Positions 3,976 through 63,582 of a stretch of DNA of 64,000 nt are shown here, in pieces; position 1 is the stretch's first letter; each line of letters starts with the position of its first letter. Source of the DNA: Capitulum mitella (lineage: Eukaryota; Arthropoda; Thecostraca; Pollicipedomorpha; Pollicipedidae). The DNA lies in the NCBI GenBank assembly GCA_030062745.1, contig CP099846.1, positions 3,286,001 through 3,350,000 of the forward strand. The letters run 5' to 3'. A program made the position numbers and the translations under genes. The notes under the pieces were generated by a model that saw nothing but the letters and a program-made list of their open reading frames with translations, ran no database searches and was not told the origin of the DNA.

Positions 3976-4045
3976 CAGGCCGAAACGGGTGAGGCCATTA
4001 GGCCCGGGGGGCTTCCGGTACCCGGGAATAGGCGCACACTCCGCC
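3976..4045 (-). CDS. Dipeptidase coding exon 7 (short, GLTxFG motif)
   Basis: This 70-base exon encodes residues 345-367. The acceptor is ATTCCCGCAG|GGCGG; its first base completes the Trp codon of CDTPW, and the donor is GGCCTG|GTGAGT, phase 0. The product includes GPNGLTRFGL, the equivalent of the family motif GLSPFG that precedes VVKELNRLG, so the exon bridges exons 6 and 8 exactly in frame. The first part (AECAPIPGYRKPP) is the variable surface loop of the family. The acceptor and first bases of the exon are repeated in the tandem array 4036-4300, so upstream decoy acceptors exist. Confidence 0.9.
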
Positions 4046-4871: not shown

Positions 4872-5234
4872 CTGAAACAAGGGGAACAAATCGCTTGGTC
4901 AAAGATGGCCCAGAAAACTACAACGGGCAGCTGTGGCTGATCTCCTGCATTTCAAAATGAGACGATAACGCACATGGATTAAGAGTGAAAACATTTTAGC
5001 GTTTTTCTCTAAAAGCAATGGAAATCTGAAGCCTCTACAGTCTACAAGTGGAGACAGATAAAAAAAAGATGAAAATGACGTATGTGCGATTTGCAAAGGA
5101 TGGAAACGTCATTTCACAAATTCAATAATGTTTGGTCCTCCCCTTCTCCAGACTAACCGGCACTCGCGTCATCCAGCCCTTCTTGCCTTCCGCCACTGGA
5201 ATATCCACGTTCCGTGACAAAACCTGTCTGGCTC

Positions 5235-5570
5235 CTCTTATCCAGCATCACTGGACTATCGACTGCGCAAGGCCTGTTGTCCGGGATCAATGGACTATCA
5301 GCTGTTCAGCCCTCTTATCCAAGACCACTGGACTATCGACTGTTCATGAGCTCTTATCCAGGATCACTGGACTATTGGCTTGCCATGCCCTTTTATCCGG
5401 GATCACTGGGCTATCGGCCATCAAGCCCCTCTTATCCAAGAACACTGGACTATCGACTGTCCAGATCCTCTTATCCAGAATCAGTGGGCTCTCGACCGCC
5501 AAGCCTCTCCTGCCCAGGACCGCTGGGCCATCGACCGTTCAGTCCCTCTTATCCCTAACCACTGGGCTTC
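5235..5570. repeat. 39-bp minisatellite, about 8.5 copies (intron 5)
   Basis: Unit pattern: CTCTTATCCAGGATCACTGG followed by ACTATCGACTGTTCAGCC or variants. Starts are spaced by about 39 bases (5235, 5274, 5312 and onward). Because 39 is a multiple of three, all three plus-strand frames give repeated peptide patterns, but nothing supports coding. Confidence 0.9.
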
Positions 5571-6000: not shown

Positions 6001-6684
6001 GCGCTGGAGTTTCAGACACGGTTAAGAGCGCATGACTGCGCAAGCCACGGATACTTTGGTATTTTAATGCCTTTGATGGCTTGGTTTTCAAGCTTTCCGG
6101 AAGGTATTTTGGGGCATAAAATTTCATATAAAATCGGGTTTGTTGTTTTTTCAGTGGCGGTTCACGATTGAACACAAACTTTCCTCCCGTAATGAGCATG
6201 TGGTTTTTAACACATGCTTCTGGTAGCGTAACTGACGGAATTTTGCGATATTATCACACGCCTAATTAAACATGCACAGCTTCCAGGCACGATGAAAAGT
6301 TCGGTGAAAACTCGTGAGAGCACGAGCGTAAAAATACCGAATGTTGGACAAGGAGAAAAAGAACGAAGCGTGAACGCCATGCGGCTCATCTGCTTCGGTC
6401 GTCTTAGATAATCAGTGTTCTGCTAGCGTGATAAACGTTTGCTCAACACAGCAGAACATACTTTGATAATCGTGGTCATTTGGGTCCACCTATTGGCTTG
6501 CTGAGGACTGTCGATAACAGGTGAAGCAGACATGCGTTTGCCAGCATCATCAGAGCTGATGTTGATGATGATATCACAGACATTGAGGTGCACCCAATAC
6601 TACAAGGCAGACATGCGTTTGTCAGTATCACCAGAGCAGGTCTGAGGTAGACGCAGTAATAACTGTTGGCGGTGAATACCCAGC

Positions 6685-7104
6685 TGATGTGTCCCGGTAC
6701 TTACTGTCAGCGTTGACTGCTAGGCTGAGGTAGTCCTAGTACTGACCGTCAGCGGTGAGGGCCAGGCTGAGGTAGTCCTAGTACTGACCGTCAGCGGTGA
6801 GGGCCAGGCTGAGGTAGTCCTAGTACTGACCGTCAGCGGTGAGGGTCAGGCTGAGGTAGTCCTAGTACTGACCGTCAGCGGTGAGGGTCAGGCTGAGGTA
6901 GTCCCGGTACTGACCGTCAGCGGTGAGGGCCAGGCTGAGGTAGTCCCAGTACTGACCGTCAGCGGTGAGGGTCAGGCTGAGGTAGTCCCGGTACTGACCG
7001 TCAGCGGTGAGGGTCAGGCTGAGGTAGTCCGAGTACTGACCGTCAGCGGTGAGGGCCAGGCTGAGGTAGTCCGAGTACTGTCGAACCACCCGCTTGATCA
7101 GGTC
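6685..7104 (-). repeat. 42-bp tandem array at the exon 5 donor: nine full units plus one degenerate
   Basis: Units start on the plus strand at 6727, 6769, 6811, 6853, 6895, 6937, 6979, 7021 and 7063; a decayed copy lies at 6685-6726. On the minus strand each unit reads as 14 codons of the type QYSDYLSLALTADG. It carries the same GACG|GTCAGT donor as the exon 5 end. The exon-side unit is coding. The next four stay open in frame, and the sixth begins with an in-frame TAG (QY then stop). Confidence 0.95.
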
Positions 7105-7173
7105 CACCTGCTCCAGAGTCATCTGCACGGCGTTTTTGTACTGCGACTCGCACGGCACATACGCCGCCCAAAA
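7041..7173 (-). CDS. Dipeptidase coding exon 5 (conserved Cys, helix before the GxEGGHS strand)
   Basis: This exon encodes residues 250-293 plus one base. The acceptor is TGTTTCAG|TTTTGG, giving FWAAYVPCESQYKNAV, the equivalent of FWSVYTPCDTQ in mammalian DPEP1. C257 is the expected first half of the conserved disulfide. The end of the exon (QYSDYLSLALTAD) is the first unit of a 42-bp tandem array that continues into the intron. The chosen donor is GCTGACG|GTCAGT at 7041/7040, phase 1. It is the only one that gives the family length before [10 protein letters not shown] in exon 6. GTCAGT has a C at +3, so the donor is somewhat weak, and identical donors recur every 42 bases downstream. Confidence 0.9.
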
Positions 7174-7330
7174 CTGAAACAGCACGTCACAGCCGGTCTT
7201 AACAAAGCAGAGAGTGCGCCCAAACCTAAACCAGCGGGCCGCAACCAGTCTTAGCACGGTGCATTTTTCACCCAAAACTGAAACCGCAGCTCACAGCCGG
7301 ACGCGTGCCGTCCAAAACTGAAAGAGCTAC
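7168..7330 (-). repeat. Degenerate 40-52-bp repeat duplicating the exon 5 acceptor
   Basis: The plus-strand word CCCAAAACTGAAAC occurs at 7168 (the true acceptor), 7219 (CCCAAACCTAAACC), 7271 and 7311 (TCCAAAACTGAAAG). It is followed in two copies by CAGCTCACAGCCGG or AGCACGTCACAGCCGG. On the minus strand these read as GTTTCAG|TTTTGG-type acceptors, so three decoys lie upstream of exon 5. Confidence 0.8.
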
Positions 7331-9491: not shown

Positions 9492-9515
9492 CTGCCGGCC
9501 GGCCAGCGGTCAGCA

Positions 9516-9810
9516 GGGAACTCCGTCCAGCGGGAACTACGGGAACGGTCAACAGGGAACTCCGTCCAGCGGGAACTACAGGAACGGTCAACAGGGAACT
9601 CCGTCCAGCGGGAACTACGGGAACGGTCAACAGGGAACTCTGTCCGGCGGGAACTACAGGAACGGTCAACAGGGAACTCTGTCCGGCGGGAACTACGGGA
9701 ACGGTCAACAGGGAACTCCGTCCAGCGGGAACTACGGGAACGGTCAAAAGGGAACTCTGTCCAGCGGGAACTACGGGAACGGTCAGCACGAGACTCCGAC
9801 CAGCGGAAAC
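9516..9810. repeat. 39-bp minisatellite, about 7.5 copies, abutting the exon 3 acceptor
   Basis: Unit: GGAACTCCGTCCAGCGGGAA plus CTACGGGAACGGTCAACAG, repeated with a few substitutions (period 39, for example 9516 to 9555). It begins 25 bases from exon 3 within intron 2. It gives apparent open frames on both strands, such as a GNYGNGQQGTPSS pattern on plus, which I treat as artefacts of the period being divisible by three. Confidence 0.95.
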
Positions 9811-11669
9811 TCGGGGAACGATCAGCGGAGAACACTGGGCAGACGGAGGCGAACGATCAGCAGGGGAATTTCGGACTATAGGTCGGCAGAACTCCGAACA
9901 GAGGGGTTCGAACAGCCAGCATTGCAATTCTGGACAGGAGTCCAGCGGAGACCAGGAAGAGTGGGGTCAGACGATTAAAGACATGCTCCAAAGGTCCTCA
10001 GAGGCGAACATTTGGGGCGTGCATGATCAGCAGAAAAAAACGCTGCGGCTCTTAAACGGCCATTGGAAACTGACAAAGTGCTCTCTCGGTCTACGGGCTG
10101 GTTGTTGGGCTGCTTTCATTGACAGTGTGTTGGTGTCGCCTTTCGATGGCTTATGAGAATAGGTTTCAAAGCTTTGCGCCCGAGTTTATGGGACAAGTAA
10201 GTACTTTTGCGAGCTCGTTGCAAGATTACGTTGGGGTTTTTGAGAAAGTATCGCCCTTTAAAGGAGAATGACAAGCTCCAGTGGAGTTGTTTCGTGCATT
10301 ACTATGACATGAAATCCCACGCCGCTTACTGCACGACCGAATCGTACCCAAGTCTCTGAACCTTTCAGATAATTTCGCATTTTATCATCTTATCTGATCA
10401 ATCCACGGTAAAAGCACTTTAGAGCAAACAGTTGCTAGATGTGGCCTTGCCACAGCTGATCAAAAATGGCAATACGCAGCTTTTGACTCGTCTCGAAAAC
10501 ACCGGAGTTGCACGTCACAACTCTGCTGAACGCTCCCCTCTCTCCGCCTGGCTAACAAGAGATCAGACACTCATGTGGCGTTGAACACTCGGGAACAAAT
10601 ATGCGCGTGCTCAGCCTCCTCAGATTTGGACTCGATCTTGTGGCTTTAAGCTGAAGTAAAAAAAAACATCAAGAAAACTTAGTCTGTAGTTGTTAAATGA
10701 ATGTTTACGGTTGTTCATCGTATTACAACGTAAATCACGGAGTGGACCAAAAACCGACGAAACAGACTTCATCGCTGAAGAGACGAATGCAAGTGGCGTG
10801 AAACAGGGCAGAGGAACGTATGCTGGCAGAATACCCAAGACATAAAACTTTAAATTGGTGTTGTCCATGGAAAATTTTAACGTTTAATTAAAAACTTTCC
10901 AAGACAGAAGTTGGGCTACTGGGTCAGGTTAATCCCCTGCTTCTGATCCGCGATGACGGAAAGATTTGAATGGAGCCTGGGACTGACTCAGCAATGCTAC
11001 ATACTAAACGGGACTGACATGCGAGAGAAGACTGATAGATCAGGGAAAACGTTCAGGGCAATGTTTCCTAACGACAGAGAAATCTGGCACCAAGGTCAAA
11101 CATACTCCCCTATCACGACATTGACAGCACTTTTACGAAATGAAATATTCGCGAAGCACTCCATGAAGGTGGCTATGGCATTAGAATGACATGAAGATGA
11201 CCTCGAATGGCTGAAGATTTGCCTAACAAATCGCCGTTGAAGTCATATAAGGCCCGGTCTAAAGCCCGTTCAGCCATCAATATTTCTCATATCAGCCATG
11301 ACGAATCCGAGATTTCGACGTTCCCGGAAATAAGGCTACGAAGAGATGCATCGTGGCTCCATTACTGAAAACCACAACCAGTGGATGATGGAGTTAAACA
11401 TTTCCGACGTTTTTATTCGACGTAAAGCTACTCCATCTTTTCCCCATTATATGAACTGAGTTTTGCGGACAAATTCACGGGAAATCGCTCGGCTGCTCAA
11501 ATATCGTCTTCTGTATCCCTTGTTCATCTTTCATCCTCTGTCTCTCATGCTCGCATTCAGTCTTCTTGTTGCGCTTACCTGTCGCCATCGGCGTTCTCGC
11601 CAGACTTTTCATGCTCACCTCTCGTTGTTGCGTTTCGTTTTTGCACCCGCGTCCAGTCCGACTGCCTAC
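9811..11669. other. Rest of intron 2: no gene seen
   Basis: Unique-looking sequence of mixed composition. No ORF has recognisable motifs and there are no transposon termini that I can define. Confidence 0.5.
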
Positions 11670-46336: not shown

Positions 46337-46567
46337 TTAAAAAGAGGACTATTCAGCCAGCGAAGGAAACACCTTGCCTCTTTCAGGACACCATTATCGC
46401 TGTGTCGTTTTTATTACACGCACAAGGCATCTTTATCCGCTAATCAACTCTGTTAAAAAGAGGACTATTCAGCCAGCGAAGGAAACACCTTGCCTCTTTC
46501 AGGACACCATTATCGCTGTGTCGTTTTTATTACACGCACAAGGCATCTTTATCCGCTAATCAACTCT
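46337..46567. repeat. Perfect 116-bp tandem duplication
   Basis: Positions 46337-46451 and 46453-46567 are identical as far as I can read (period 116), beginning TTAAAAAGAGGACTATTCAG and ending CTAATCAACTCT. The lack of divergence implies a recent event or an assembly artefact. Confidence 0.95.
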
Positions 46568-63420: not shown

Positions 63421-63436
63421 CTTCGTCATTATATAT

Positions 63437-63537
63437 GTGTATATATATATATATATATATCATATACAGATATATATATGTTTGTATATCTATATAATAT
63501 ACAGATATATATATATATATATATATGTTTGTATATC

Positions 63538-63582
<45 letters not shown>
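63437..63582. repeat. Large TA microsatellite with internal ~65-bp period
   Basis: TATATA tracts interrupted by GTTTGTATATCTATATAATA twice, so a larger unit has duplicated within the TA run. It separates the Penelope-like fragment from unannotated sequence to the right. Confidence 0.9.

Follow-up and report, generated by a model that had tools for sequence, protein, structure and literature searches.

Tandem repeats that span an exon-intron boundary were named mirages in the amphioxus Adh3 gene and were later described in globin genes (PMC3087553); AG and GT splice signals occur in many of their units, and the Adh3 data, together with reverse-transcription PCR of the globins, suggest regular splicing. 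The haplotypes of BflGb6 carry six and three units, respectively, and in the BflGb9 mirage the duplicated exon boundary is the 3′ one (PMC3087553); the Adh and TnC mirages are not accompanied by aberrant mRNA and the same has been argued for repeats in PGBD5 (PMC3902484). In human segmental-duplication genes, internal tandem repeats at exon edges may lead to alternative splicing or create new introns (PMC2812944), and in prawn lectins coding repeats lie inside exon 2, away from the exon edge (PMC7536079). Here, we describe a 42-base-pair (bp) tandem array on the minus strand of a 64,000-nucleotide stretch of contig CP099846.1 (the whole stretch analyzed, hereafter the window), where it straddles the end of exon 5 and the start of intron 5 of a membrane dipeptidase gene. 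The array probably belongs to the mirage class, the published members of which have the same anatomy. We consider it likely to be a donor-side mirage, that is, a minisatellite formed by tandem duplication across the exon 5-intron 5 border, in which the first donor (donor 1) is the functional one.

Tandem Repeats Finder reports the array at 6683-7080, with a period of 42, 9.5 copies, 94% matches and a score of 649. Read along the minus strand it comprises nine units, from 7080-7039 (the first) through 6744-6703 (the ninth; Table 1). Unit 1 closes exon 5: it holds the final 40 coding bases of that exon and the GT that opens intron 5, and the remaining copies run on past the exon border. The first-pass annotation had described nine near-identical units at 6685-7104: it was right about the repeat itself, but 7104-7081 is ordinary exon and a decayed tenth unit continues beyond the other end, and near-identity holds for units 1-8 (0-3 mismatches of 42 bases in pairwise comparison) but not for unit 9 (5-8 mismatches). 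The donor that it considered common to all units, GACG/GTCAGT (the slash marks the exon-intron border), is present at eight of the nine junctions: junctions 1-8 read GACG/GTCAGTAC, and the ninth, with its GT at 6704, reads GACA/GTAAGTAC (GACA/GTAAGT), such that splice signals are present in many units. Units 1-8 end in GT and the following unit begins CAGTAC (Gln-Tyr codons), so the GTCAGT is assembled by the junction itself; as can be read from the sequence, gain or loss of whole units keeps a donor at the first junction, provided that another unit follows.

Decay is confined to the distal part of the array. The tenth unit (6702-6661) scores 32, a value reached by none of 500 dinucleotide shuffles, and the stretch 6702-6600 scores 56, also reached by 0/500; half unit 11 alone (6660-6619) is less certain (score 26, reached by 8/500), and past unit 11 no stretch stands above background (127/500 and 143/500 shuffles reach the score). 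In this one allele, the pattern is that of a diverged distal edge (units 9 and 10) and an exon-side unit 1 that is not diverged. Only three columns vary among units 1-8 (positions 1 and 2 of codon 3 and position 1 of codon 9), and all three alter the amino acid or create TAG, with no synonymous change. Along units 1-5, codon 3 reads TCG, TCG, CGG, TGG and CGG, and it is TAG in the last four. Three aligned dipeptidases have Pro at this residue; a single substitution would turn CCG into either TCG or CGG, and the starting unit of the array may have carried this Pro codon. The opposite strand of the array is also open, in a reading frame of 176 amino acids (6724-7251, plus strand) with AEVVLVLTVSGEGQ repeats, an openness that can arise by chance for a unit whose length is a multiple of three. 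The exact unit pattern gave no matches in viral contigs, a search that may not cover records close to the genome from which the window comes, and Rfam, at gathering scores, gave none within the window.

The low end of the window carries, on the minus strand, a portion of the host gene, identified by homology and Pfam as an animal gene for an M19 membrane dipeptidase. Exons 4, 5 and 6 and the exon at 3030-2854 have AG and GT at both borders, the border of exon 5 having been placed by homology and reading frame. Joining the first four dipeptidase exons gives a single open frame, and the joined four-exon protein matches dipeptidase structures (best 9h0b, E = 9.4e-46; human renal dipeptidase 1itq, E = 2.2e-44); the Peptidase_M19 domain (PF01244) is matched by two exon groups (2.8e-39 and 4.1e-25). 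Five short motif patterns for the C-terminal dipeptidase exons gave two matches across the window, none convincing and none near the gene, the remainder of which probably lies past the window's low end. The N-terminal anchor and some motifs of the protein are, we take it, reminiscent of arthropod dipeptidases.

Table 1. Exons of the dipeptidase gene and units of the 42-bp array; exon numbers are those of the first-pass annotation, and units are described in minus-strand order
Feature	Position	Strand	Remarks
Transmembrane-segment exon	9483-9314	-	Start uncertain
Dipeptidase exon 4	8182-8026	-	Ends CAG/GTCAGT, phase 0; aligns with dipeptidases
Dipeptidase exon 5 (canonical, 133 nucleotides, donor 1)	7173-7041	-	Last 40 nucleotides within unit 1
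Unit 1	7080-7039	-	Codes QYSDYLSLALTAD, then G/GT; donor GT at 7040
Units 2-5	7038-6871	-	Intronic with donor 1; exon frame open; donors at 6998, 6956, 6914, 6872
Units 6-9	6870-6703	-	TAG as codon 3 in each; donors at 6830, 6788, 6746 (GTCAGT), 6704 (GTAAGT)
Decayed unit 10 and perhaps half unit 11	6702 to about 6637	-	Shuffle controls
Dipeptidase exon 6	4871-4721	-	Frame continues G/AT ATC ATG; contains SLIGLEGGH
Tentative short dipeptidase exon	End at 3976	-	
Dipeptidase exon	3030-2854	-	Matches PF01244

The protein consequences of donor choice single out the first junction. With donor 1, residues 149-203 of the product lie ungapped on residues 103-157 of 1itq, and no other donor yields a product that is colinear with human dipeptidase 1. 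Translation bore out the earlier count that the donors of units 2-5 add 14, 28, 42 and 56 residues in frame, as well as the predicted stop from the sixth unit on, so the products of donors 6-9 include a TAG. The extra residues from donors 2-5 would sit between the positions aligned to 1itq 107 and 108, a site that is uninterrupted in the three dipeptidases aligned; 17 residues past 108, downstream of the insert, a Glu aligns with E125 of 1itq, which we take to be a zinc ligand of the human enzyme. The product with four added units scores 143.5 bits, compared with 159.2 bits, and its match is split in two, as any insertion at this point would cause.

In the sequence of events that we favor, the array would have arisen when the last 14 codons of exon 5 and the beginning of intron 5 were duplicated in tandem, with each early junction (the first eight) rebuilding a donor from the GACGGT of one unit and the CAGTAC of the next. 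Unequal exchange or slippage would homogenize the exon-proximal units while old copies decay distally; the first donor (7040) would provide the functional mRNA, and the other donors would be silent or contribute low-level noise. Each new duplication restores a donor at the first junction; splicing at unit 1 should therefore tolerate changes in copy number, and the array could thereby persist beside the exon. This reading is supported by the anatomy of the array, the colinearity of the donor 1 product, the single open frame through the neighboring exons, the TAG in units 6-9 and the lack of synonymous variation among units 1-8, and also, by analogy, by the reportedly normal splicing of the amphioxus mirages, of which BflGb9 likewise sits where an exon ends. 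On the same analogy, the number of copies could plausibly differ between individuals.

Several points weigh against a mostly silent mirage. The use of donor 1 is something that we infer, mirage splice signals could act as cryptic sites (PMC3087553), and the mirages in print come from lancelets (PMC3087553, PMC3902484). The ninth donor, at 6704, also scores higher than donor 1. In a general donor weight matrix that is not specific to the host species, donors 1-8 score 2.27 and the ninth 3.05, the highest value within intron 5; for scale, the window has 7350 GT sites on its two strands, of which 212 score at least 2.27 and 149 at least 3.05. The exon 5 donor is the weakest of the six gene donors scored, one of them tentative (the others range from 3.43 to 6.27). 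Exon 4 likewise ends in GTCAGT, so C at +3 seems acceptable to this gene. Pairing with U1 also slightly favors the ninth donor (-7.0 versus -6.6 kcal/mol for donors 1-8), as measured by a duplex energy that must be regarded as a rough and poor guide, because an exonic GT at 7107 (-7.8 kcal/mol) outranks every array donor; on this scale the exon 6 donor, at -4.9 kcal/mol, is weaker than that of exon 5. The ninth donor is predicted to be the most often unpaired, both in the whole fold (0.48 versus 0.22-0.27 for the others) and in local folds (0.39 versus 0.22-0.27). Relative to 60 shuffled sequences the array RNA folds with a z of about -3.1; as the repeats do not survive shuffling, only the per-donor accessibility was used. 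Finally, the intron-proximal copy is reportedly often favored among duplicated donors, a result attributed to Reed and Maniatis in 1986. On balance, the likeliest outcome is that only the first donor matters, followed by one in which the ninth donor takes part in a degree of unproductive splicing; our confidences in these readings are not strictly exclusive.

Such unproductive splicing could act as a throttle, in which intron-proximal donors, chiefly the GTAAGT at 6704, would retain TAG codons and direct the transcript to nonsense-mediated decay (NMD), with copy number tuning the output. This is unlikely, albeit compatible with a mostly silent mirage, and both may hold. The site at 6704 combines the top weight-matrix rank in intron 5, a slight lead over the other array donors in U1 pairing and the greatest accessibility of the nine donors with a TAG in its product. 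However, the differences in score are small and come from general tables that are not species-specific, the U1 measure favors the exonic GT at 7107, exon 5 would be extended to 469 nucleotides, and the lancelet precedent is normal splicing (PMC3087553). A more speculative extension, to which we give little credence, is that a self-regenerating, copy-number-variable donor array, perhaps from an animal other than a lancelet, serves as a splicing rheostat, the length of the allele setting the balance between the normal isoform and TAG-containing (NMD) or 14-residue-extended isoforms.

Improbable to a greater degree is a functional ladder, in which donors 1-5 would alternate to lengthen the enzyme by 0, 14, 28, 42 or 56 residues a short way ahead of the zinc-binding Glu. 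The first-pass annotation had read the array in this way, as a "built-in ladder of alternative donors", and units 1-5 are indeed open and in frame, their donors are identical in sequence and every TAG-containing unit is distal. Yet units 2-5 are open because they inherited their openness from coding unit 1, and the distal cluster of TAG codons is equally expected from the copying of neighbors. Frame preservation was considered as proof of function and rejected, the unit having been coding from the outset; the period divisible by three is the sole remaining coincidence, and it is weak evidence. Scoring of the donor in each unit, suggested together with the ladder, did not set donors 2-5 apart: they equal donor 1 at 2.27 and have no feature to distinguish them from it, and the best site is the one at 6704, with its TAG-containing product. 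Moreover, the insertion would interrupt a segment that is unbroken in all three aligned dipeptidases, and none of the variants among units 1-8 is synonymous, nonsense being among them; the copies show no sign of purifying selection, although three variable columns are too few for a test and cannot exclude it. Normal splicing has been reported or proposed for the published mirages (PMC3087553, PMC3902484). The ladder is conceivable but unsupported.

It is highly improbable that the array seeds a new exon or intron through splicing within it, with its donors and a branch-point-like CTGAC and an acceptor-like CTCAG: CTGAC and AG sites occur in all nine units and intron gain from mirages or boundary repeats has been proposed (PMC2812944, PMC3087553), but upstream of AG the candidate acceptors have 9-12 pyrimidines among 18 bases and thus no pyrimidine tract, and AGGT, which in duplicate could provide both splice sites of a new intron, is absent from the unit sequences. 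An assembly artefact or a collapsed allele difference is about as improbable, as the ordered variant units and decayed distal end are unlike simple read duplication, even though misassembly is common for tandem arrays and the draft assembly of one lancelet mirage was aberrant (PMC3087553); the copy number itself may be wrong in the assembly.

The window is rich in comparable arrays, and no special function is therefore needed to account for the one in the dipeptidase gene. With a period of at least 20 and at least 2.5 copies as criteria, 16 rows of minisatellites merge into 11 stretches that make up 3.3% of the window, one of which (63430-63573) belongs to a TA run. Two arrays lie less than 3 kb from the 42-bp array, in or beside the dipeptidase gene. 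One, in intron 5, occupies the stretch 5233-5565, where a 39-bp repeat at 5234-5554 has 8.3 copies and is more divergent (71% matches). On the minus strand at 9507-9824, another 39-bp array (8.2 copies) adjoins the transmembrane exon on its 5′ side and is fully open in the frame of that exon, with PVVPAGRSSLLTV-like repeats (open reading frame 9966-9313); judged from its sequence, it could be either coding DNA or a mirage on the acceptor side. Elsewhere, a 116-bp unit is duplicated head to tail at 46337-46567 (2.0 copies, 100% matches), either very recently or as an assembly effect. A Pfam scan of 20 long open reading frames out of 184 (at least 90 amino acids) gave no matches at E = 0.01.

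A tandem series of eight identical donors, followed by a ninth that scores slightly higher and with the frame unchanged, constitutes a natural test of how the spliceosome chooses among equals: if the first donor alone is used, the choice is set by position or exon context and not by donor sequence. If the host is not a lancelet, mirages, described for lancelets, are also more widespread. Like the amphioxus mirages in Adh3, BflGb6, BflGb9 and TnC and the similar repeats in PGBD5 (PMC3087553, PMC3902484), the dipeptidase array spans an exon-intron boundary, and like BflGb9 it copies an exon's 3′ boundary. It differs from them in residing in another gene, and possibly another animal group, in having a unit of 42 bp, a length divisible by three, with five units open, and in a donor created by the unit junction, and it is known from the sequence of a single haplotype. 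Whereas the edge of the BflGb6 cluster is excluded from homogenization (PMC3087553), the dipeptidase array has diverged distally only, and its coding unit 1 is near-identical to its neighbors. A minisatellite at an exon edge is shared with the human internal repeats (PMC2812944), for which transcripts back the altered structures, the dipeptidase array being described from sequence only. Exonic tandem duplication that generates splice sites is shared with intron gain by tandem genomic duplication (PMC3443670); the dipeptidase unit, however, lacks the AGGT of that model and shows no sign of a new intron, and it copies the end of an exon together with its donor region.
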